Part shown: in pieces, positions 1,363 through 60,971 of the stretch | Position numbering within the stretch: the first letter of the stretch is position 1 | Layout: the number at the start of each line of letters is the position of its first letter | Source of the DNA: Enchytraeus crypticus | Taxonomy: Eukaryota > Annelida > Clitellata > Enchytraeida > Enchytraeidae | Length of the DNA stretch: 64,000 nucleotides | NCBI GenBank assembly: GCA_905160935.1 | Contig: CAJHZI010000564.1 | Span: forward strand, 926,501-990,500 | Direction: 5' to 3' | Notes under the pieces: model-generated | Database searches by the model: none | Seen by the model: only the letters and a program-made list of their open reading frames with translations | Told to the model about the DNA's origin: nothing | Made by a program: the position numbers and the translations under genes

Positions 1363-1419
1363 TTATTCAGCGCCTTGCGAGGGATCTGGTTTGAGCAAGT
1401 TCACTAGTAGTAGGTGATC
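1363..1419 (-). CDS. Probable last exon of the LOTUS-RRM-Tudor gene
   Basis: After a TTTACAG acceptor, 18 codons (DHLLLVNLLKPDPSQGAE) precede TAA. Joined to exon 8 this gives KMLRYEDHLLLVNLL, a plausible final strand pair of an extended Tudor fold. It makes the total coding length an exact multiple of three. AATAAA overlaps the stop codon and could serve as a polyadenylation signal. Confidence 0.5.
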   Translation of the reverse strand, partial: DHLLLVNLLKPDPSQGAE

Positions 1420-1536
1420 CTGTAAATATACAACAATAAATTAAGATATTAAGATGAAGAAGCTTTAAAAAGTTAAATTTAAAAAAAGTAAAAGTAAAAT
1501 AAAAGTTAAATATCTATACATATCATAACAATTTAA

Positions 1537-1603
<67 letters not shown>

Positions 1604-4600
1604 TCAAAATAGCTCAGTCTCTTTGAAATCAGGTTGAGCATGTATGATAAGATATGCAGACACTTGAGAACACCAGAGTGGCGTGATGATCATAGTAAAA
1701 CTGAACTGAACTAGTAATAGGGGCGAGGGACGTGAAGATAGAAGAGGTTCCACTGTAAATAAGCCCCCCAAGAAATTATTTTCAGTACTAGTCTATACGA
1801 CTGAACTTGTGGTTGACAATAGCAGTTTCAAGGAAATCATTTATTGTCCTTTGATGATGAAATAATTATTTACATGTTAGGATTCGAATAATAAAATGTT
1901 AATTATTTATGATTAATTATAATTAATAGATTGCAGTTATTTCTATTTAAGCAAAATATATTCTAAATGGAAGGTTTTTTAAAATATGCAACAAAGAACG
2001 CATTAACAAGGAACGCAGTGCTACCACTTAACGGTTTTTCAATCATAACAACGAACGAATGGTGAGTATAACAATTAGAGTAAGCCCGTGACAAAGATTG
2101 TCGGTTTACTTAAAATAGAGCATAAATTTTAAAACGGAATAAGTTTGAATAGAAAATGCCACGAAAACAATTAAGAACTCCTTATAAAAACCAACCTCAT
2201 ATCGTAACATTTTTACTTTTATTCGCTCGTTTACCACAGCTTCAGTGCGTAGATCTGCATTTCCTAGTAAAATGAACAATGATACACAATACAAAATTGT
2301 AATAATAGGCACTACTACAGTAATTAAGAGAATTACAAAGTGGACTTTTCAGACACTAAATAGTTATCCAATTCCATCAGTATGTAGCTTGTCCAAATAA
2401 TAACCGAGGTTCACGCCAGAAACGAAGCGATACGAGATTTTGCAAAAATTAGATCTATTAGGTTTCCGTGTAAGTTGTGTAAAACTGTGAATCGTGCGAT
2501 AATATTGGTCATCAACATCTTCATCCCTTACATCCCACTTTAGCTAGGATCGGGATACAAATAGACCCTTTTCCATTCGCTTTAGAAAATATTGTAGCAA
2601 TTTCTAGAGCCTAGTCACTTAACCGAATGTCCTTTGGCACGTTGGTTTGGATCTTAGTGTTTTGTCGCTTTCTACGACACTTGCATTCCACATTTGGTCT
2701 ATTCTTCAGCAATCCGGACAAAAAACGGATAAAACTGCGGTAATATTGGTTAAGAGTTGCTTTGTTTTTTAATATGAAGCAATTTACAGCATTTGTTAAA
2801 CTTTAAAACGGCGATGGGCAAGTGTATATCGTATCATTGAATATCATCTTTAGGCTGGCCGGTGGCTTGTTTCAAAGTTGTTCGACAGCGGATCAGTAGG
2901 TTCAGGGTTCAAATCCAGTGCTCATCCCGTTCTGACATGCCATTCAAGAAGGATACTGACGTTTATATTGGTTTTGGCTATTTAGATGTACAAAGAATGT
3001 TTAGCGCAACTACAGCTATAGTCTTTTTAAATATTCTTATCAAATGTAATCATACTTTTTTCACGTTACACAAACTCTTTATACGAAGATTAAAGAGCAA
3101 TTCAAAAATTACTAATAAACTGTTATACCTAAATAACAAGAGTGTACTTGACTATTTTTAAATTAATAAACATACACTGACTCAAGCAAAGTTAACCTGT
3201 TCGGTGGAAGTGTTGATTTTTAAATTGCGTAACAATTATACGATCTCCCGGACTCATAGAATGGTTGAATCTATCCTTCGGTATCTTTGATATACTGGAA
3301 ACAAGGACACATAAAAGCTACAAAAAAGTTATAGCCAAGGACAAAGATTAACTTTAGTTTCCAGCTCGATTGCAAGTCAGTGACAGGGAGATAACTACAT
3401 TTAAACAATGCATCTTCTCATCCGCTATCGAACAAGTTACCAACAAGCTACCGGCTCAGCCATCTCAGCTTTAAAATATTAAACTTAGTAGAACATCATA
3501 CCGACGACTTTGAGAGCGGTCACTGATGGAGCAATCGACCAGACATCTGTCGGTAGTGGGATGAGGTGATTGCTATCCACCCATACGACGTTACCATAAT
3601 CTACGAAAAACACAAGACGTTTTGAACCCAGTCTCTTGGCGATCCAGACTCTGAAACATAAACATATAGGTGCGCATATACATGTATATGTAGATCCTGG
3701 GGCGAATTGAACCCTCGTGGGTTCGAATCCCAGCCGCGCAGATCTAAGAGTAAATCTCGGACATTCACTGGACTGGTTTTACGGAAAATGGACTAATTGC
3801 CTAACGGATTTAACAAGTGATATTAAAAGTGATAGATATCAACATTGTTGATCATTTCACTATAATGCGTGTTTATAGACAACTTAGGTAATATACATGT
3901 ATCTATTTTTTTTATTGTCGTCATAATCAGAATGGAGGAAAACAAAAATTGTAAAATATCGAAACCAAAAATCAATGCTAACATTACACACAATAGTAAG
4001 AATATCAGTATAAACCACCAACAGTTAGATAAATAAAAACGTAGCAATAAGTCGTCATAAACGTTCACTTCAACGACATGCGAGGTCTCCTAGGAGATAA
4101 ACAGTACGGTTACGTTAAAGCCAATCGTGTTCATAATATAATTTACATAATTGAAACTAAGCCACACTACACCGACTTGCAAAGGACTTGCATAAAAAGT
4201 GCATAGCTTGACAGTAAGATATATTATTCGATATCACTATACAGTAGTTAAAAGGTAAATTAAATGACTTGTAAAGGTGATCAAAGTTAGCGACTGTTCA
4301 TCTCATTGTCATATATTTTAGAGCACCGTTTCTGTACAGAGTAAGAAAAAATAGCAATGGCTGTAGCTTCTCGAATATAGAATGAATTCCTGAATTTGAA
4401 ATTTCATGAGTTCACGTGTCTCCGTATTACAGTTAGTATAAGCTATGGAGACAAAAATTTGTTAACTTTCGCCAATTCATATTCACTATTTATCCATGGC
4501 ACAATTTACTGTATATGAGATTTTCATCGATTAAGAAACCTCAAACGTTTTGAGCGTCGTCATTATCTTTAGTACTCATTGCTCGATGTTGTCCTGCAGG

Positions 4601-7600
4601 TAGAAGCATACTGATTATGTTTGTTGTTGTTGTTACTGAAATACCTGCTCAGTTCACCCTGAAAGAAAACTCCCGCTCTTTTATACTCCTGCTCTACATC
4701 AGCTCCCCCAGGTGACTGGATGTCCTTCAGGGTCACAGCATGGGAGCTCAGCTTATCAAACGTGCGGCCGAAGTCACTCTCACTCTACAAGTAAAAACAT
4801 TCTACTTTATCCATCCTACTTTGATCCATATTGTATTTTGCATACTGCAACTACATGCATATGTTAATCGAAATTAATTACTATAAATAATATGAAAATT
4901 AATACACTGACAATGTTCATTTTACATATAATGAAACAGATTGCAAAATAGGAGTAGAACATGTTAAAATGGGTACCCTTAAACGTTATTTAGAGCCATA
5001 GCATTAAGTTTTGATAGAATCTTAAACTGATTTATATTTGCTAATGTAGAGATTGAATTGCCACCTACTTTACAGATGGCTTCCTGCGAGAGAAGCAGGA
5101 GGCCATAATTTTAAATCTCAGCCAGACCGTATCTTATAGAATCTCTTGTGATATGGATACAGGCGTTAAACTTAGCTTTATATCTAATATAAGAATTTAT
5201 GTCATATTAATAAAAATGGCGAAGTAGCAGTAACTTAAAAGCGTTCTATAAACCTCTTCATCGATTACAGCCCATAAATGTTGCCCATCATTGCAGACAT
5301 AAGTCACAAGTATCTCCAGCTCACACTTCTCTAATTTCTTTCCTGGATTTATCTCTAAATTGCAGCATTCTTTCATCATTTGACCATATACTCCATTCCT
5401 CGTCACATATAAATCATCCTCAATCAAATCGCTGGCGTCATGTTTTCTGGAGGAACTGCTGGTTGATGTTGAACACCTATCGATACTCGAAATTTCAGTT
5501 TTTTCATTTAGCGAATTTTCACATTCAACCTTATCGACACATTCCTTAATCAAAGAACCCATAGCACTGACTTGAGAACCTTTCAACACATCATTTCTCG
5601 ACGATGAAGACCTTTCCACTTCGCCGGGTGATTCCTGTAATCTCTTACGTTTTTTTGCCTCTGATCGGGCCTGGTCAAGAATACTGAGTAAGTTTATTCT
5701 GCTACGTCCACTGACCTGTGCACCTTTCACTGCATCGTTTTTCGATGACGAAGACTTTCCCACTTCATTTGAAGAAGATTCCAGATTAGAATCCTGACTG
5801 TAATCAGAACCCGGAGGAGAAATCCCGTCAGATCCATCGATGGACTTCTCATTATGCACAACATTTGTATGATTGGTGTCTGTTGTGGATCTTTGGCAGC
5901 TAGGAGGTACTCCTCTAGAGCTTATATTTGAATAAAGTCTTTCAGTAGAGTCGATGACATGAGAACGCAAATTACTCTGGAATTTGTCTTCTCTGTCTGA
6001 ATTTTCGGCAGAACATGGAGGTATTGCATCATTCAAATTGCTGTTTGCTATTAATTTTTTGGGATGTTTTAGCAAAGCCAACGATGTATTTTGAGATGTT
6101 TCCTTCATATCATAATCGGATGAACTTCCTGATGGTTCATTTACAGTGCGATTAAAATTTGTTCCAATTAAACTCTGAATTATTAAGTCGATATTAAAAA
6201 AACCACAGTAATCTTTAAGTAGTTTTACATTAGGTATAGTTGCGGCAGCGCTTTCATCAAGAATACCTTCACATCTCGAATATACAACTTCGCGTCTGTT
6301 TAGAAATTTAATATAATGACTTTTCCTTCTCTTTCGTGCTCTCGTAGTCTCACTCATTAAGAGTTCGGGTCTTTCAAATTTCATTGAATGCTCATACCGG
6401 CAATATTTCTGGTCTCTGTCACTTTTCGAAAACCAGTCTCGATAGGGTTTCTGATGATTTAACTGCAATCCAGAAAAACCTGCGCTACATCCACCAATCA
6501 CTGCCTTGTCGGTCTCAGCCATATTAACTTCTTTTAAAAAGCCACTGGAAAAATTTGACGGAAGCTTTTTTTCCTCTGTTTCTCTTCCACTCCTCAACAC
6601 TTTTAAGGAATTAAGATCTTGACTATCTTTGATCTCGCTCGTATTCTGAATGCCACTTAGTGATGCCTCTCGAGTGATTGTGTCAGATAATACAGGCTCT
6701 TCGTCGTAGATAAAGCTTTTACTCTGTTGGACATTAAATTGGGAACCCATTGTTTGACTGCATGAAGATGATGATAGTTTAGAAGGTCGATCCCATTTGT
6801 CTTCGCTACTTGATTCAGAGCGCTTAAACGCCTGACAGCTATATCTGCCTCCGAGATTAGACTGTAGGCCTACATCTGATCCAGTACTGCACATAATTTG
6901 ATCAACATTTGAATTATTTCTCAAATCTTTGAGGAGTTGCATAATACTTTTTCTTATGGGTGAAGCATTAGAAGATGGAGTAGCAATACCATTCTGTTTC
7001 ATTTGATCCTTTTCACCTTCAACTTTCTTTCCCTCATTATTGTCGTTGAAAATTTGGCTTCTACTAATATCTGAAGTACTTTGAGACTTTGTATGCGGGG
7101 ACCCATCATGATCAGTTTTGTTAAGTTCTCGAGTTATAAAGGTTTGATGATGAGGATTTTGTTTAAGTAACTGATCGCTGCGACGAACATCACTTTCGCG
7201 ATTAAGTAGGTCATAGTTTGAAAAATTATAGTCAGGATCCTTTGTGAACTCCTTCTCTGAATTTTTCGCAGCAGGCAATTTTGAATGAGAATCACTTTCC
7301 ATGTTTTGATTTCCCGACATTTCGTTACGCAAAATTGCCTTTAGCTTTTCAGACGTCACAGCGCTGGCGACAGGAGTTCCAGAAAAATGAGCTGGATGAG
7401 AATTTTTAAGCGACGTATTAGGAATCAGGGGACTTACACTCTCATTTCTTGTCATTTCGCTTTCAGGATTCGAGTTGGCTTCAGCTCTAGGATTTGGTTG
7501 TAACTTGGGAGGTTTTGTTTGTCTAGCTTCTCCATTAGGTTCCTCTACTGTAATTGGATTTGGTTGTCGAAGGCATGAAGCCTTTGAATCAGGCTTGATC

Positions 7601-10600
7601 TGCTTAGCATTACCTCCATCAGCCTGTTTCCACCAGCTGAAGTCATCGTCGGATGAACTGGAGGAGAATTTGTGAGATTTCCGACTGAACAGCGTTGCCC
7701 CCTTCCTAGTAAAATCTGCAAAATAAGAAAGTCAAGCAAGCAATGCAAAGAGTCAGTTGAATTAATGTTAGAATCGATCTGTGATCCAGGAGGTCACAGA
7801 CTATGAGCATGCACATCATGATATATAGCAATACTTTCAAATATAATAAATACTGTTATTACTACATTTATGCCTAATTTGTAGAAAGGTTCAGTAAAAA
7901 CAAATTGCATGTAATGACGCGTACCAGTGTTGGTTGGAGGACTTGGACAGAGTTGATTTATTCCATAATCCGTGTATTTTTTGTAGGCTTCTGAGTTCTT
8001 AGCGAAGGAAACGCTGATGCACTCTCCTCTAAATTCGTTTATTGAAGAAAACGCTGCCACGGCATTGTTGAAATTTCTAAAGCTGGCGAAAGCGTACGGT
8101 CTGAAAATTAGAAGAATTAAAAAATTAATTACAAAAACACTTTTCGAGGGTCGACACATTGCAATGCCGCTTCTCGTGGACGTGAAAGACCGGATCCGAG
8201 ATCTTTCAAAAGCTGAGTAGCAAAAGAAAAATTTGTTTTTACACTACAATGAATGATTTTTTTTCAAAAGCGCATAAGAAGCATACCCAGTATTTAGGCT
8301 TACACCTACATGTATATTATACGTTATACAAAACACATTAAACGCTGAAAAGTGGGCCAGCTATCAGCATGTTAATTATGACACAGAGACCAAAACATTA
8401 GTTTAGCTCTCAATCAGTAAATAAGCATCAGATGCCTTTCCACTTATATACTGTATGTATTCCGTAATACATGACACTAGGGTCGAAAATAGAAAATATG
8501 TTTTTTCTTTGATAGTTGACCTTCTGTCCATTCATACAGATTGGTAAAAATAAGAGTTATAAATATGAATAATTTTCTAACCGATACATATATCGCATTC
8601 AATTATTTATATTAATAAATCTTTTTTAGATGCAGCGAAAGAGAGTTCCTCCGGGGTATTCGTGATTCCGCACTTTGTGACCGAGGCCAATCTCAAATAA
8701 TGAAATATATCATTGAGGAGTGACCTCTAACCTGCCTGCCGGGTGGTCTGTCTACGTTAAGACGCCTTACAAGTGAAGCAGTTACCCGGATTAACGCATT
8801 CGCTAAAGAAATAATATATTTTCCGTTTAAGAAATTGTAATAATTAGTCGAATTAAACAAGAAACGAACTATTAGTAACTTACGATCTGCGCTTGGATAT
8901 TTTCAAACGAACTTGAGTGCAATGATGCGCCGCTAATATTGCGTCCATTAGTTCTTCCTAAAGTAAGCATCAATATTAGTATTATATGCAGTGTATATAG
9001 AAAATAAAGTTACAATTACACTGTAAGTACTCTTAGTACTAAGCAATACTAACTACAACAATTCTCTTACTGCAATTCAAAACCGCTTATATTTCAAATA
9101 ATTAAAGTTTTATTATCAGTTTTTATTATTAGGCAATTGGCTTAGGTTTTTTAACGATTATCAGTGCCTTTATCAAGCTTTATTTTACAGACATATTATT
9201 GAAAATAAATGGAGTAAATCTCAGAAAGTTTGCAGTTAATTAATAAAAAATACAGGTAGAGTTTGAAATATCATTTCAGTTCTGAATATGACATGACAGA
9301 TGAAAGAGCCTAAGTCTTAAGAAATAGTGAGGCACCGACGACATGCACAATTACATGCAAGCTACGTGAGTAAGTCTTACCTCAGTGGTGCCATCTGGTA
9401 GGCCGGACAAGAAAAGATCATAGCGTCGAGTTATCCAATTCTTCTTTTCCTCTGTTGGTTTTTTGTCGGAGATATTCCTTGTGTGGTCATTTGCCTTTCT
9501 CGACTTAACAGTACCATCAGTCATATACCCTCCGGTGTCTCTAGAGTAACCTAAATTGGATCTCCCTTCGTGTCCTCTATCTGCAGGTGATACACTTCTT
9601 AAACGTCTCTCTCTTAATTCAAAGATTCTTTTGTCAAGGCTCCTGTCGCATACAGCTTTGCTCTTCACAGCAATATCTACAGGTGAATATGATGATGTAA
9701 CGTTTTCTTTCAATCTCTTAACTTCGCCAGGTAAACTTCGTTTGGATTTAGCTCCGCTCCCATTATCATCAGAAAAATCCGAGATTCGTTCGTTTTTTCG
9801 TCTCTCATTGTAAGCTACAGATTGATAGGAAAGATCTCGATCAAATTCTTTTCCAGCCTCAACTGAAGTGGAAGCAGGACGTCCTCCACCCATATGGAAT
9901 CTTCTGGTACCCTCTTCTTCAAAGTCACTCAACTCCGATTCGATGTCACTGGAGCCTGAGAATCTTCCTTTCTCGAATTTTCTCTGGTATGCAGAACTCC
10001 TAATATCGTTTCTAATGTCAGTTGATTCCCTGCTTGATTTTAGAGATTCTTGATCTCTACTCTGCGCCAATCTCGCTGCAGATAGATCACGAATTGTTTT
10101 TATATCTGGACAAAATGGATGATCCTCAGGAGCTTTGTCTGCTCGAGATTTGCCGGAAGGATTGGAAAATTTTAAGTCAGATCCACTGCAGTGGAAGCCT
10201 TTACTTGTCACCATTTCACTTCGTCCAGTTGTACGGTTTTGTAGTCCTCTATTCTGTCCGGTCGTATCTTCTACAGCTGCAGGTCTTGGCTGCGTTGATG
10301 GTTTGTGATTTTGTAAAGGGTTGTCAGCTAGATAGACCCACACAAGACCCAGTTTTCCTTTTGTTTCTAATCTGAAATCAAAATCCTCCAAAAACTTTAT
10401 TAAGCATTAACATTTTTTAGAGCAAACAAATGTTACCATTTTGAATACCTATTTAGGTAGTCAGCATGATGGACTGTTCTAACAATAGTGAGCAGTATTT
10501 CATAGTACTAGATATCATCATTGCTAGCAGTATCATTTTAATTGCTGTGTTTATAACCTTAGTATTATTATTATTCTTACTGACCTGGACTCTTTTTAGG

Positions 10601-11433
10601 CTTAATGAACAGAGACAATAAAAGTGATAGGATTGGTGATAGTCTAAGTAACCTAATTGATAAATAGTTTTTACAAGATAATATTGAATAAAAGTAGAAT
10701 GGATGTGACGTTTTCAGTCATGTTCCTGAGGTAAACCAAATCAGGCCATTTCACAAATGTTTATTTGCTGATAACTAAATTCTATGTTGCATATGATCTG
10801 TTGTCATAATTTTGTTTCACTGAGAGATTACCTAAATTTAGTCATCAGCATCTTTAATAAGATATATCAGTGTTGGTAAGTTACACTTCAGACTATAGAC
10901 CAACCGTGTTCTGCCCTTATTGTAAGAGGAGACTAATCTGCCAGGGGCTTTACGAAATGATTGGATTATCGAGAGAAAGAGAGAGAGAGAGAGACAGTCT
11001 GAGAGAGTATAAAGATGAGCATAGCATATGAATTACATAGTGCCATTGTGTGTGAAATAGAGAGAAAGAGGGAGAGAGAAAGAGAGAGAGAGAGATAGAG
11101 AGAGCAGAGACAGATCTAGAGAGAGAGAGAGAGACAGAAAGTTAGAGAGAGACAGACAGACCGACGGACAGACAGGCAGATAGAGAAAGAGAGAGAGACA
11201 GAGACAGATACAGCGAGAAAGAGAATGCAGATTAAACAGAGTTCGTAGATTACTTTCCATTCAACTTACCTCGCAATATGCGGAATTCTTCGAAGATATT
11301 CCTCGAGATTTTTAAAACCAATTAACTTAATGTCCAAAGCTCTACCGAACATCTCCTGGTAGAGACCAGAGAACCCGTGAAGTGGAATGCCATTGGGCGC
11401 CTCCTGGATGACGGTTCTTATTTCAGCCTCCAT
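1363..11433 (-). CDS. LOTUS-RRM-Tudor germ-granule-type protein (nine-exon gene model)
   Basis: Exons in coding order are 11433-11270, 10371-9381, 8957-8884, 8100-7925, 7715-5254, 4784-4645, 3650-3502, 2254-2196 and 1419-1363. All junctions are GT-AG and the phases match throughout, giving 4272 nt (1423 residues plus stop). Domains: LOTUS/OST-HTH at about residues 1-75, an RRM at about 372-445, a long Ser/Asn/Lys-rich disordered stretch, and an extended Tudor domain from about 1262 to the end. LOTUS plus Tudor is the arrangement of TDRD5 and TDRD7, which act in germ granules and piRNA-linked RNA control. RRM plus Tudor is the arrangement of TDRD10. All three together is unusual. By inference it binds RNA and methylated Argonaute-type partners in nuage. 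The first seven exons are secure. The last two rest on phase, splice sites and weak similarity to the end of an extended Tudor fold. Confidence 0.8.
1541..1599. repeat. (TA)n microsatellite
   Basis: Nearly pure TA run of about 60 bp in the probable last intron of the LOTUS-RRM-Tudor gene. Confidence 0.95.
2196..2254 (-). CDS. Probable exon 8 of the LOTUS-RRM-Tudor gene
   Basis: A 59-nt segment lies between an ATGCAG acceptor and a GTTGGT donor. It reads DLRTEAVVNERIKVKMLRYE. Its phase (1 in, 0 out) fits exon 7, and the pattern resembles the closing strands of the SN-like half of an extended Tudor domain. The intron before it holds SINE-A and SINE-B copies. It is supported only by phase and weak similarity. 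Confidence 0.55.
2518..2702 (-). mobile_element. SINE-B copy
   Basis: Reverse-orientation copy of the dispersed family whose sense strand starts GTCCGGGTTGCTGAAGAATA and ends in CCTAGTTAAACTGGGATTCA followed by (GAT)n. It lies in the intron before the probable exon 8. Confidence 0.7.
2846..2945 (+). mobile_element. Diverged SINE-A copy
   Basis: GCGGATCAGTAGGTTCAGGG and GGTTCAAATCC (box B) are recognisable. The 5' part has diverged. Confidence 0.5.
3502..3650 (-). CDS. Exon 7 of the LOTUS-RRM-Tudor gene: Tudor core
   Basis: The acceptor is TTTCAG. The translation contains VWIAKRLGSKRLVFFVDYGN, then VVWVDSNHLIPLP. VFFVDYGN is the diagnostic Tudor core with its aromatic residues and Asp/Asn. 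The domain is therefore probably able to bind methyl-arginine, although the full aromatic cage cannot be judged by eye. Phase 2 in, phase 1 out. Confidence 0.85.
3692..3882 (+). mobile_element. SINE-C copy
   Basis: Contains box B (GGGTTCGAATCCC), the GCGCAGATCTAAGAGTAA block, GGACATTCACTGGACTGG and the end GTTGATCATTTCACTATAAT. Box A is truncated. It lies between exons 6 and 7 of the LOTUS-RRM-Tudor gene. Confidence 0.75.
4645..4784 (-). CDS. Exon 6 of the LOTUS-RRM-Tudor gene: Tudor domain, part 2
   Basis: The acceptor is CTTGTAG and the donor GTATTT. It reads SESDFGRTFDKLSSHAVTL and later GVFFQGELS. These are the helix between the first extended-Tudor strand and the core barrel, and the strand before the R(W/Y)xR position. 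It is noticeably more GC-rich than its surroundings, in the manner of a constrained exon. Phase 0 to 2. Confidence 0.8.
5050..5190 (+). mobile_element. SINE-E copy (tRNA-like)
   Basis: Resembles the element at 50485-50625: CTTCCTGCGAGAGAAGCAGG, AGGCCATAATTTTAAATCTC, CAGCCAGACCGTATC, then a TGTGATATGGATACAGGCGT-type tail ending GTTAAACTTAGCTTTA. It abuts the end of exon 5 of the LOTUS-RRM-Tudor gene. Confidence 0.6.
5254..7715 (-). CDS. Exon 5 of the LOTUS-RRM-Tudor gene: long disordered region and first Tudor strand
   Basis: This 2462-nt exon begins after TTTTGCAG and opens FTRKGATLFSRKSHK, followed by SSSSSDDDFSWW. The body is Ser/Asn/Lys/Glu-rich and looks disordered. It contains a duplicated motif (SSSSKNDAVKGAQVS and SSSSRNDVLKGSQVS). 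The last residues, ELEILVTYVCNDGQHLWAVI, match the opening of a Tudor domain (V..V.....LW..I). The donor is taken after GAAGAG at 5254, because reading on reaches a stop at 5197 and loses the Tudor domain. Confidence 0.82.
5562..5768 (-). repeat. Duplicated coding motif inside exon 5
   Basis: Two coding segments about 147 nt apart (5711-5768 and 5562-5622) encode SSSSKNDAVKGAQVS and SSSSRNDVLKGSQVS. The protein and DNA are both clearly related, so this is an internal duplication in the disordered region. Confidence 0.75.
7925..8100 (-). CDS. Exon 4 of the LOTUS-RRM-Tudor gene: RNP1 half of RRM
   Basis: The acceptor is TTTCAG. PYAFASFRNFNNAVAAF is the RNP1 strand and second helix. FRGECISVSFAK is the last strand, with the usual basic end. 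The exon then runs into a linker ending SPPTNT. It leaves in phase 1 at a GTACGC donor. Confidence 0.85.
8884..8957 (-). CDS. Exon 3 of the LOTUS-RRM-Tudor gene: middle of RRM
   Basis: This 74-nt exon is easy to miss. Its acceptor is CTTTAG and its donor GTAAGT. It reads EELMDAILAAHHCTQ then VRLKISKRR, which is the first helix and second strand expected between the RNP2 strand in exon 2 and the RNP1 strand in exon 4. It enters in phase 0 and leaves in phase 2, matching both neighbours exactly. Confidence 0.82.
9381..10371 (-). CDS. Exon 2 of the LOTUS-RRM-Tudor gene: end of LOTUS, charged linker, start of RRM
   Basis: The acceptor is TTTCAG and the donor GTAAGA. The first residues complete the LOTUS wing. 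A charged, Arg/Ser/Asp/Glu-rich region of about 300 residues follows and is predicted to be disordered (RKFEKGRFSG, ELSDFEEEGTRRF). The exon ends with YDLFLSGLPDGTTE, which is the beta-1/RNP2 strand of an RRM. The domain is therefore split by the next two introns. Confidence 0.82.
10975..11225. repeat. GA-rich microsatellite block
   Basis: Imperfect (GA)n with interspersed GACAGACAGAC, starting 45 bp downstream of the exon 1 donor. It resembles the (GA)n tails that follow the 3' end of the LINE family at 21500. Confidence 0.9.
11270..11433 (-). CDS. Exon 1 of the LOTUS-RRM-Tudor gene: LOTUS/OST-HTH domain
   Basis: This exon encodes 54 residues plus two bases. The start is ATG at 11433 in context AAGATGG. 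The reading frame is open a little further upstream but has no earlier ATG. The pattern IRTVIQEAPNGIPL, then LIGFKNLEEYLRRIPH, is typical of the winged-helix LOTUS fold (a helix, a G-I/V-x-L turn, then LGF..L.E.L..IP). The fold finishes in exon 2 with LETKGKLGLVWVYLAD. The donor is GTAAGT and the exon ends in phase 2. Confidence 0.85.
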
Positions 11434-14710: not shown

Positions 14711-20547
<5,837 letters not shown>

Positions 20548-21504: not shown

Positions 21505-23390
21505 AAACTATTTTAATGAAATAATAAAATTCTCTCTCTTAGTGCACTGCCTACTGGCAAGTCCATGGTACATAACGCCTCCACTCTTCTCTGTCTTCCG
21601 CCTTCCTCTTCATTTCCACATATGAGTGAGTCTTTAAATCATCTAACATACCTAATCTCGGCCTGCCCCTGCCTCTTTTTCCTTCCATTCTACCTTCTAT
21701 GACCTCTTTTAATAGACCTTCCCCCCTTAGAATGTGTCCTATCCATATCTTCTTCCTATTTCTTAATACATTTATCAACTGTCTATCTGTGCCAACTCTC
21801 TCCAGGACTTCCTCATTTGTAACCTTTTGAGTCCAGCTAATCCTCTCCATTCTTCTCCAAATCCACATTTCCAATGCCTCCAGTTTCCTAATATCTTCCT
21901 TCCTTAAGGTCCATGTTTCACATCCATACAATAGCGTGGTCCAAACCAAAGTTTTCACTATCTTTATCTTTGTGTCTTTCTTTAGATTTTTTGTTAATAG
22001 TTCTTTTCTACTACCAAAGGCCGCTTTTGCTTGTGCAATCCTACTGCACATTTCCGTCTCACATTTCCCATCATCGGTTATAGTATGACCCAAATATTTG
22101 AAACTCCTTACCTGTTTCAATTTCGTACCATTTATTGTGATATTAACTTCACGTTTATTATTGGACACTCTCATAACCTTGGTCTTTTTTATATTAATCT
22201 TCATGCCATATCTTAGGGCCGTATCATTCAGCCTATCCATTATCTTCTGCAATCCAATCTCGCTGCCCGCTACCATTCCGTGGTCATCTGCAAATCGTAC
22301 ATCTTGTAACAAATTCCCTCCTACTTTTATTCCTTCTTCCAAGTCTTCCATGGCTTCCTCCATCATTGCCTCAGCGTAAATGTTAAACAGCACGGCGAAA
22401 TGCTACCTTGTCTTACTCCACGTCCATTTCACCTTCTTCTGAGTATTCTTGTTGGATTTTGATTACTGCTTTTTGATTCAAGTACAAGTTCAAAATTAGT
22501 CTTTACTCTGCAGTCAATTCCTATTCTTTTTAAGATATTCATCATCGTTATCCAATCAATCCTGTCAAAGGCCTTCTCGAAGTCTACAAAGCATACAAAA
22601 ACGTCATTTCCATATTCTAAGCTTCTTTCGCAAAGAACCCCCATTACTCCTATTTCTTCTCTTATGCCGCATCCTTTCCTAAAATCAAATTGTGTCTTGC
22701 TCAGTATCATCTCTGCTTTAGACTGAATGCGAATATTTACTATCATTAATAAGATCTTCGATGCATGAGGTATTAAGCTGATTGTTCTGTAATCCGAACA
22801 CTCCACAGCATTGGCTTTTTTGGGAATTGGAATCATCACTGACTTGGTGAAGTCGTCTGGCCAAATACCTGTATTGTACACTTTCATACATACCTCCATT
22901 AACTTTTTGAGTGTTTCTCCTTCCAACATTTTCAAGAATTCTGCTGGGATTTCATCTATTCCGGCTGCCTTCCCCTTCTTCATGCTATTAATTGCAAAAT
23001 AAATTTCCTCCTTCATTAAATCGGGTCCCCTTTTATCGTTTTCTATGATATTTTCTTCTTCTATTTTAAAATCCTCTTGAACTGGTTTCCCAGCCTTATC
23101 ATACAATTCCTCTACATATTCTCTCCATCTTTCTTTTATTTCTTCCAGCTCTGTCTTCAATTCCCCGTCGTTACCCATTATACTAATGTTCTTTGCATCT
23201 CCTTTCTTTTTCTTATCGGTTCTTGTTAATATCCTGACTTCCTGGTATAATAGATCCGACCTCCCTCTTCTATCATATTCTGCTAAATCATCACACTTTT
23301 CACTCCACCAGTGATCTTTTGCTTTGTCTGTAATTCTTCTAAGTTCACTGTTCAAGCTTCTATATTTCCTTCGGCCATTGCAGCGCTATG
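21505..23390 (-). mobile_element. Decayed non-LTR retrotransposon (RTE-like reverse transcriptase)
   Basis: On the minus strand two overlapping coding blocks (23355-22429 and 22393-21551) together cover the reverse transcriptase and C-terminal part. Recognisable pieces are MKKGKAAGIDEIPAEFL, CFVDFEKAFDRIDW, QDVRFADDHGMVAGS (the FADD catalytic box), SFKYLGHTITDDG, LYGCETWTLRKED and GKRGRGRPRLGMLDDL. The blocks are in different frames, with at least one frameshift between about 22380 and 22440, so the copy is dead. The endonuclease half is absent, consistent with 5' truncation. The 3' end, GTACCATGGACTTGCCAGTA, GGCAGTGCACTAAGAGAGAG, merges into a short GA tract and recurs across the window. Confidence 0.88.
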
Positions 23391-27625: not shown

Positions 27626-55044
<27,419 letters not shown>

Positions 55045-58889: not shown

Positions 58890-59005
58890 TCTGAAAATGA
58901 TCTGATTACCCCAAAAATGGTGGGGCAAAACCCTATCTTTGCCCTACCTGCTGAAAATTTGGTGGGGCGCAGCACCACCATGCCCAGCGTGATTTGCACC
59001 CATGG
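58890..59005. mobile_element. Terminal fragment of another hAT-like element
   Basis: GGTGGGGCAAAACCCTATC, GGTGGGGCGCAGCACCACCA, then GTGATTTGCACCCATGG. The last bases resemble the reversed CAGTGGTGCAAACAGCC at 57935, but no matching target duplication was found. Confidence 0.4.
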
Positions 59006-59104
59006 CTTTCATCTCTATGAAGTAAGGATGCGTCCCATTGAAAGGTCGGATGTTGAGAAGAGGTTTCGTGTCGTTTGACCTACCGTTCGACGGTCTTCTC
59101 GTAA

Positions 59105-59122
59105 GTATAGACACACACACAA

Positions 59123-59197
<75 letters not shown>

Positions 59198-59310
59198 ACA
59201 TGTATATAATTATATATATATACATGTATATATATTTATTTATATATATACATGTATATAATTATATATATATACATGTATATATATTTATTTATATATA
59301 TATATATTAG
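59105..59310. repeat. Complex CA/TA microsatellite
   Basis: ACAC(A)n, then TA with ATATACATGTATATAATTAT repeated about every 60 bp. Confidence 0.95.
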
Positions 59311-59745
59311 AGCTGCAGACGAATAAAAAATTTAATCGCGATTAATCGTACGATTAATCCGTTAAACGAGTAGTTAATCGATAGGACCATTTTTAATCGA
59401 AACTGTTATGTACACTGTCAACATACTTATATGAATAGTAATTGAGGTTTAATAACTATTTTAGCATTAAAGGATGATGGCAGAGATGACTACCTACTGA
59501 TACTTTGTTCAGCTAATTGTTACGAATTAAGACACAAGATTATTAGCTGTACCAACTGAGAGAGAGAGGCTACGATTTCATTTACAAAGAGGCAAGTTGT
59601 TGAAAATAGGCTTTCGCGTGGCACAGGTGAGGCCGCTGAACCCAAATATTTCAGGTCCAAAAAACAAATCAAATTACCGGGAAAAATGTTGACAGAGTTA
59701 AGTTTAATACAATTACTGATCTGGCTGACGCTACAGTCAAAATAT

Positions 59746-59883
59746 TGACTGGAACCAGTGGCGATGTCCGTAAGATATTCGACCGCTGATCAGTACCTGC
59801 AGGATTCAAATCCTGGGCTTTCCCGTCACTGACATCGTTTTCGAGCGAGGAAACTGACGTAAACATTACCTTTACCAGCTTTT
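59746..59883 (+). mobile_element. SINE-A copy
   Basis: GACTGGAACCAGTGGCGATG, TTCGACCGCTGATCAGTACC, GGATTCAAATCCTGGGCTTT, then the CTTTACCAGCTTTT tail. Confidence 0.85.
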
Positions 59884-59937
59884 TACTTTTAACGATAGAG
59901 ATAACTGCGTTAATCTGCATCCCTTTATATTTACATG

Positions 59938-59938
<1 letters not shown>

Positions 59939-59992
<54 letters not shown>

Positions 59993-60002
59993 GTATATAT
60001 AC

Positions 60003-60041
<39 letters not shown>
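59939..60041. repeat. (TA)n microsatellite
   Basis: TA tract with two TACGTA interruptions. Confidence 0.95.
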
Positions 60042-60042
<1 letters not shown>

Positions 60043-60971
60043 GGCATGTACACTATATTTTTATGTTTTTCCTATTTCTGCCTTGATGGCCAGGTTACAA
60101 TGGTTTTTCTGCCCCTGCAATTCAAATACGAAATTTTTAAATAAAACTGTGCTCATAGGCAGGTGCATTTGGAGATTGTACGTGGACATTGAGCTTTGAA
60201 TAGATTGCCTTGTAGCATAGGCAATATAGGGAAAATGTTCCGAAATACCAATTGCATAAAAAGCTTAAGCTATAATAATTACAATATCTTCCTAATTGAT
60301 GCCTACCGACAAATAGACATAACATAGAAATGCAGCATAATAATTGACTGGAATATCGAATTCGTGTTTTAAATTGTAGGCCTAATAAAATTGCTCAAGC
60401 ATCAAGACGGTAAACACAGAGATATCTACAGTACACAGGTACAGATACACAGGTACACAGAGATACACAGAGATATCTAAGTTATTGCAGAATAAAACTC
60501 TACCGACGCAGGTTAGTATTGTGTATGTTATGATATGTCAAAAGATGCAATGCCCTGACATTTTTTCAGATTTCTTTATTATCAACAGAATTTAATTACA
60601 CGTATCGTATGAATTACGATCGATACCGATATATAAAACCATGACGACTAAGCGATACCATAAAATATGAAAAGAGACGGTTGTGTTGAACGAAAACTGT
60701 TTTTTCAAACTTGACAACAATTCAGAAAAAGGAGGTCTTCGGAACACTAATCCAATGTCAAGACTTACAATAGATCCATTCTAATCACATCCGAGAATTT
60801 ACTATAAAATCAGCGAGCGAGTCGACTTGGATATTCGAGGTTTGCTGTCTCTACGACTGATCTCTCAGAGTTTTGCGGTCAGAAGACTTTGTCGCTGTTC
60901 TAATCTTCCTCGTAGCATCTCGCGGTGTTGCGCCATCTGTCGATAAACCGAGCTGAAGTGTGAAAATAAAG

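Follow-up and report, generated by a model that had tools for sequence, protein, structure and literature searches.

Two genes combining LOTUS, RRM and Tudor domains in the annelid Enchytraeus crypticus

The window analysed here is a stretch of 64,000 nucleotides (nt) from the annelid Enchytraeus crypticus (GenBank assembly GCA_905160935.1, contig CAJHZI010000564.1, positions 926,501 to 990,500). On the minus strand, at window positions 11433-1363, it contains a gene whose predicted product combines a LOTUS (OST-HTH), an RRM and a Tudor domain. The contig is designated C471 hereafter; C104, C107, C403, C615 and C802 are likewise contig labels within this genome. A second gene with the same three domains lies on C104, and we describe both genes, the introns that they share and their relation to known Tudor proteins.

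The window gene and its three domains

The gene model comprises 10 exons and encodes 1461 amino acids (aa), with exons 8-10 held as tentative. The exons, given in window coordinates, are as follows.

Exon 1: 11270-11433, minus strand; start codon and the larger part of the LOTUS (OST-HTH) domain; following intron in phase 2
Exon 2: 9381-10371, minus strand; end of LOTUS, an S-, R- and D-rich linker of ~300 residues, and RRM strand 1; following intron in phase 0
Exon 3: 8884-8957, minus strand; RRM helix 1 and strand 2; following intron in phase 2
Exon 4: 7925-8100, minus strand; remaining RRM with RNP1 (PYAFASF); following intron in phase 1
Exon 5: 5254-7715, minus strand; 820 codons encoding the serine-rich linker and, after it, the opening strands of the extended Tudor domain; following intron in phase 0
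Exon 6: 4645-4784, minus strand; middle of the Tudor domain; following intron in phase 2
Exon 7: 3495-3650, minus strand; Tudor core with FFVDYGN; end uncertain, either 3502 (phase 1, as the C104 donor) or 3495 (phase 2, frame kept)
Exon 8 (tentative): 3197-3294, minus strand; second half of the extended Tudor domain, with a Tudor profile match at E = 2.3 only
Exon 9 (tentative): 2196-2263, minus strand; based on open frame, phases and GT-AG alone
Exon 10 (tentative): 1363-1419, minus strand; with stop codon, based on open frame, phase and acceptor alone

With exon 7 read as 3650-3502, the first seven exons join to 1385 stop-free codons, and every intron is bounded by GT-AG. The coordinates, junctions and agreeing phases given for these exons in the initial annotation are therefore correct. 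The two longest open reading frames (ORFs) of the window correspond to exon 5 (844 aa) and exon 2 (351 aa). At this base composition, the chance of an open frame of this length in one frame is ~2e-27 for the 820 codons of exon 5 and ~2e-11 for the 330 codons of exon 2.

Pfam profiles were run on the 1385-codon protein and on isolated pieces thereof, with cut-offs of 23.8 (OST-HTH), 23 (TUDOR) and 20.7 bits (RRM_1). The LOTUS domain (residues 3-60) scored 36.4 bits in the whole protein and 42.9 bits in isolation, and the Tudor domain (residues 1269-1380) 28.2 and 33.4 bits, respectively, so that both lie above their cut-offs either way. RRM_1 (residues 374-432) reached 24.1 bits as an isolated piece. 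One LOTUS, one RRM and one Tudor domain were detected by Pfam, and in this respect the earlier proposal that all three reside in one protein stands, with exons 8-10, the end of the Tudor domain, being tentative. Compared with RRM chains of solved structures, the RRM yielded a best E value (E) of 5.9e-5. Its RNP2 (LFLSGL) and RNP1 carry aromatic residues at position 2 and at positions 3 and 5, respectively, which we take to be the three RNA-contact positions. RRM and Tudor are separated by a serine-rich linker of ~800 residues.

Other splices between exons 7 and 8 were tried and discarded: 5 of 13 acceptors are in the right phase, all of which run into stops, and nine microexons of 7-70 nt would fit the phase, though by eye their splice sites are poor. 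Two tRNA-like stretches, noted by eye at about 3470-3410 (GGCTGAGCCGGTAGCTTGTTGG...) and 3740-3708 (GGGATTCGAACCC), flank exon 7 and are perhaps remnants of short interspersed elements. Moreover, intron 1 contains a CT-rich simple repeat (about 11240-10970, as read on the minus strand). Long TA-rich simple repeats are located at about 1600-1540, 51027-51299 and 59000-60080, the last two being read as spurious ORFs.

A second gene and the introns shared with it

An OST-HTH search of the genome gave six matches from 10 candidates, located at four loci: C104, C403 (three matches), C107 and the window gene on C471. The gene on C104 (about 262207-288679, minus strand) carries LOTUS, RRM and Tudor in that order, as does the window gene, with Pfam scores of 44.4, 23.2 and 57.2 bits, respectively, the Tudor query being three residues short inside the match. 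Its RRM-to-Tudor exons splice to 707 aa in one stop-free frame, and the other frames contain 77 and 25 stops.

Seven introns were compared between the two genes, sharing being judged by position and phase with no formal statistic. Six are common to both.

LOTUS: phase 2
RRM, strand 1/helix 1: phase 0
RRM, strand 2/3: phase 2
After the RRM: phase 1; the next exons open with DFTRKG (window gene) and DLLRKV (C104)
Tudor, N-terminal strands: phase 0
Tudor, before VW: phase 2

Other genes of the same genome served as controls. In the TDRD5-like gene on C107, LOTUS 1 and 2 are intronless and the Tudor domain is interrupted at other places, and the RRM of the MARF1-like gene on C403, identified by eye, is continuous through the site of the first RRM intron. 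Taken together, the same domain order and the same introns in two diverged copies suggest that the architecture predates the split of the two genes, and among the sequence features compared we regard the shared introns as the best evidence for this.

The C104 gene differs from the window gene in a Tudor domain closer to the Pfam profile (57.2 versus 28.2-33.4 bits), in unlike linkers and in an RRM intron that carries a large insertion; the window gene is the more diverged of the two LOTUS-RRM-Tudor genes found in the genome. The insertion, at about 268500-277000 (L021, L022), consists of a cluster of ORFs on the same strand that are unlike the host exons. By eye, one of them resembles a protein-primed DNA polymerase, with no Pfam match at E 0.01, and the cluster is probably a large mobile or virus-like element. 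A second Tudor domain was sought over ~26 kb downstream of the C104 gene; the single weak match (E 2.0) has no D[YF]G strand and was rejected. A third LOTUS-RRM-Tudor copy was not found with the first 503 residues of the window protein as the query, which matched the window gene alone (five pieces); this search was insensitive, because it missed even C104.

Kinship, competing explanations and surroundings

Among solved structures, the window LOTUS domain matched TDRD7 best (E 4.7e-8), and TDRD5 was absent up to E 1. Conversely, the TDRD7 LOTUS domain, when compared with this genome, retrieved the window gene first (E 1.9e-4), followed by matches at 0.28 and 0.73, so that the two are reciprocal best matches between the solved structures and this genome. 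For the C104 LOTUS domain, TDRD5 (1.2e-5) was slightly ahead of TDRD7 (7.6e-5) among the solved chains. Compared with 28 other pieces, the window Tudor domain was closest to that of C104 (score 108, z 19.3; next 62, z 7.7). The Tudor domain of a provisional human TDRD10 sequence, compared with 29 pieces, ranked C104 first (119, z 18.3), C107 next (87) and the window gene fifth (67, z 8.9); since many of the Tudor pieces are exon fragments, this comparison favours the three spliced domains. In a 13-row Tudor tree, C104, the window gene and the provisional TDRD10 sequence fall on the same side, but weakly supported (55/59 and 57/83). No branch is starred, and the window gene pairs with the provisional TDRD10 sequence (81/76), with C104 outside; a grouping of C104 and the window gene alone was not rejected (p 0.347). 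The RRMs compared with the RRM of the provisional TDRD10 sequence gave z scores of 2.8 and 3.6, which were too weak to be used. Likewise, a regular-expression count of RxW and W..[PA]P was set aside, as the first D[YF]G was misread in two rows and most pieces are short.

On the best reading of these sequence comparisons, the LOTUS-RRM-Tudor family is near TDRD7 by its LOTUS domain and near TDRD10, in its provisional sequence, by its Tudor domain, and we name it as neither. The initial annotation had suggested that both TDRD5/7 and TDRD10 types could derive by domain loss. For TDRD10, an origin by loss of LOTUS fits the Tudor similarity, which is strong for C104 and middling for the window gene and uses the provisional TDRD10 sequence; we take it as a lead, not as proof.

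We therefore consider it probable that the window gene is an intact annelid member of an old bilaterian LOTUS-RRM-Tudor family related to TDRD7 and TDRD10, and that its protein most likely serves as a germ-granule adaptor. Several points weigh against this reading. In the whole-protein search the RRM scored 17.9 bits, below the cut-off of 20.7; a score under the threshold, which the initial annotation would take as refuting, was thus obtained for the RRM in the whole protein but not for the isolated domain. Among solved structures, the window Tudor domain found nothing significant (best Tudor E 0.33-0.44). For C104, splice sites were chosen manually by reference to the window gene, and the spliced part runs from RRM to Tudor, with ~7.5 kb between its LOTUS and its RRM. 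The intron in LOTUS is weak evidence, since two of the three MARF1-like LOTUS domains on C403 show a GT at nearly the same site, read in phase 0; hence five informative introns were counted. The seventh intron is common to both genes only if donor 3502 is used. In pairwise comparisons the window LOTUS domain is nearer to TDRD7 (z 25.3), to a MARF1-like LOTUS domain of C403 (z 18.8, from a row containing two letters supplied by the analyst) and to LOTUS 2 of C107 (z 17.9) than to C104 (z 9.2), which makes a recent separation of the two genes less likely. By z, the C104 Tudor domain favours a Tudor domain on C615 (17.6, score 102) over that of the window gene (16.5, score 108), and the two RRMs score 52 against each other, with a mean of 23.4 and a maximum of 54 in 400 shuffles. 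Finally, the analysis covers one annelid genome at the level of its DNA, and the amphioxus protein discussed below was compared by its published description.

The end of exon 7 bears on a different explanation, namely that the window gene represents a paralogue that is truncated or decaying, in which the true splice at 3502 breaks the frame and the product consists of LOTUS, RRM and a partial extended Tudor domain. This donor has phase 1, as in C104, and matches the consensus at 5 of 9 positions, compared with 3 of 9 for the GT located 7 nt downstream (3495). Joined to exon 8, it adds 13 further residues and then a stop; because it puts exon 8 out of frame, the phase agreement reported in the initial annotation ends at exon 7. 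The Tudor domain could thus be truncated, as the donor that keeps the frame is weak, and exons 8-10 were held as tentative for the same reason. However, donor 3495 leads in frame through exons 8-10 to the stop codon, yielding the 1461 aa, and such a chain in one open frame is not what a decaying gene needs to keep. In addition, the exons of 820 and 330 codons are intact. Exons 9-10 read RIKVKMLRYE-DHLLLVNLLKPDP, and this ending (KVKML...LLLVNLL) resembles what we take to be the pair of closing strands found in extended Tudor domains. We consider a truncated paralogue unlikely.

A lineage-specific fusion would have joined LOTUS to an RRM-Tudor gene within the annelids, followed by duplication, the amphioxus protein having been fused independently. 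With the sampling limited to a single annelid genome and a single amphioxus cDNA from the literature, there is room for this scenario, and the window LOTUS points to TDRD7 whereas the C104 Tudor points to TDRD10 (provisional sequence), that is, to different vertebrate relatives; moreover, the two annelid genes are not mutual best matches in their LOTUS domains. However, a chordate has the same rare set of three domains, and two diverged copies with six shared introns place the fusion before their split, which renders this scenario improbable. Where the initial annotation had offered an ancestral state and a lineage-specific fusion side by side, the domain order and introns of C104 and the amphioxus cDNA point to an old architecture, and fusion has become the weaker option.

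The notion that the model merged two adjacent genes (LOTUS-RRM and Tudor) draws on the separate exons of RRM and Tudor and the long linker between them, but it is very improbable, as the initial annotation had already held: LOTUS ends and the RRM starts within the one open frame of exon 2, the intron between the RRM and Tudor exons (7924-7716) has 209 nt, with matching phase and neither AATAAA nor ATTAAA in a scan of that intron, C104 has the same exon junction with a similar start of the following exon, and the amphioxus cDNA carries all three domains.

If the window gene is an intact member of the family, what is known of related proteins would place its product in germ granules and predict binding of RNA and Piwi. 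Dimethyl-arginine-binding Tudor domains contain a cage of four aromatic residues plus an Asn. When the window gene is aligned with C104, and C104 in turn with SND1, the presumed cage sites by eye hold F, S, F, Y and N, i.e., three of the four aromatics and the Asn. In a sequence comparison no C-terminal alpha-5 helix aligned after LETKGKLGLVWVYLADNP in the window LOTUS domain, unlike in LOTUS 1 of C107, and the domain seems to be of the minimal type without the Vasa-binding helix. The extended LOTUS domains of TDRD5, TDRD7 and Oskar are reported to bind and stimulate Vasa, for which the C-terminal helix is needed, whereas the minimal LOTUS domains of the MARF1 type lack it (PMC5458760); LOTUS domains, by one account the minimal ones, are described to bind G-rich RNA (PMC9200344, PMC12925329). 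Judged by its sequence, the window protein probably does not activate Vasa in the manner of TDRD5, TDRD7 and Oskar; as its LOTUS domain shows no such helix, Vasa is a less likely partner than RNA or some other molecule. The RRM, perhaps together with the LOTUS domain, would hold RNA, the extended Tudor domain would dock a partner bearing dimethyl-arginine, e.g., a Piwi protein, and the ~800-residue linker could provide a flexible, condensation-prone tether, so that the whole protein would link RNA to Piwi in germ granules as an adaptor. One polypeptide could then combine the binding of RNA, contacts through LOTUS and the docking of Piwi. As a tentative history, which we regard as possible, the bilaterian ancestor had a LOTUS-RRM-Tudor protein from which TDRD10 (LOTUS lost) and TDRD7 (RRM lost) were derived, and in the annelid duplicate pair the window copy gave up Vasa activation for RNA tethering.

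Adjoining the LOTUS-RRM-Tudor gene on the opposite strand, an ORF at window positions 15967-16860 (plus strand) encodes ankyrin repeats and an NADH pyrophosphatase zinc ribbon (Pfam) and, from its sequence, looks like a NUDT12-type gene. Two adjoining ORFs at 21554-23385 (minus strand) carry the halves of an RVT_1 reverse transcriptase domain (Pfam) and represent a frame-broken retroelement, non-LTR-like by eye. Elsewhere in the genome, the mitochondrial contig C802 shows, by eye and ARAGORN, the order nad3, nad2, cox1, trnN, cox2, trnD, then trnY, trnG and the start of cox3, which is the usual annelid order. Three more ARAGORN calls on it (Lys, Ser, Met) were not trusted, as each overlaps a gene or is on the opposite strand, and atp8 was not separately identified. 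COX1-like pieces with stops on the non-mitochondrial contigs C361, C424, C796, C373 and C166 are perhaps nuclear copies of mitochondrial DNA.

Comparison with known proteins

TDRD5 (Tejas) resembles the window protein in combining LOTUS with a single Tudor domain, and differs in that no RRM is listed. The genome of E. crypticus contains a separate TDRD5-like gene on C107 with LOTUS repeats and one Tudor domain; no RRM was found in the stretch 742001-799000 of this contig. Its LOTUS 1 is nearer to TDRD5 (z 20.4) than to TDRD7 (z 12.8) and by eye carries an extension of the Vasa-binding type. MARF1 shares LOTUS and RRM with the window protein but has many LOTUS domains and no Tudor domain; the C403 gene with its three LOTUS matches is MARF1-like by eye. 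Vreteno presumably has an RRM. Veneno of Aedes, compared by its description, resembles the window protein in its RRM and Tudor domains and is associated with PIWI-interacting RNA granules, but it has a MYND finger and LOTUS is not mentioned in that description.

Vertebrate TDRD10, like the window protein, has an RRM followed by a single Tudor domain (PMC12147562). By eye, the provisional human TDRD10 sequence and the family described here have R-x-W-[VI] ahead of the FVD[YF]G strand in common. As TDRD10 is devoid of LOTUS, the window protein was not filed as TDRD10 proper. The function of TDRD10 is entered as unknown in the table of a Tudor survey (PMC12147562), and the name is also used for a different protein, SMNDC1 (PMC5485951). 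Among the matches listed for literature naming TDRD10, no account of its origin was found. TDRD7 (Tapas) contains the LOTUS domain that is the reciprocal best match of the window LOTUS, albeit as an extended LOTUS in contrast to the minimal type. For zebrafish Tdrd7, three LOTUS domains, two Tudor domains and no RRM are tabulated (PMC5485951), compared with one of each domain in the window protein.

The survey of 2025 assigns LOTUS to TDRD5 and TDRD7 and the RRM to TDRD10 (PMC12147562), which suggests that Tudor inventories giving each protein one extra domain can miss the LOTUS-RRM-Tudor family. Anantharaman and colleagues described proteins in which OST-HTH is fused to RRM or to Tudor (PMC2848206). 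In the passages of the literature that were examined, no protein with all three domains is described besides amphioxus Bf-Tdrd7, though Figure 2 of PMC2848206 could show one.

The closest known counterpart in domain content is Bf-Tdrd7 (GenBank KC516712), described in 2013 from a cDNA with a complete ORF that encodes LOTUS, RRM and two Tudor motifs (PMC3735472). The remark in the initial annotation that no well-described family with all three domains was known to its author is thereby superseded. According to that report, maternal Bf-Tdrd7 transcripts reside in the germ plasm, where they co-localise with Vasa mRNA. Like the window protein, Bf-Tdrd7 has LOTUS and RRM near the N-terminus, Tudor and a similar length (1279 aa); it contains two Tudor domains versus one, and the likeness is judged by domain content alone. 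Hence, the three-domain combination itself is already in print, and what is new is the annelid pair with shared introns, which adds a second phylum to the family. Together, the protostome gene pair and the amphioxus protein provide a testable ancestor for TDRD10 and TDRD7.

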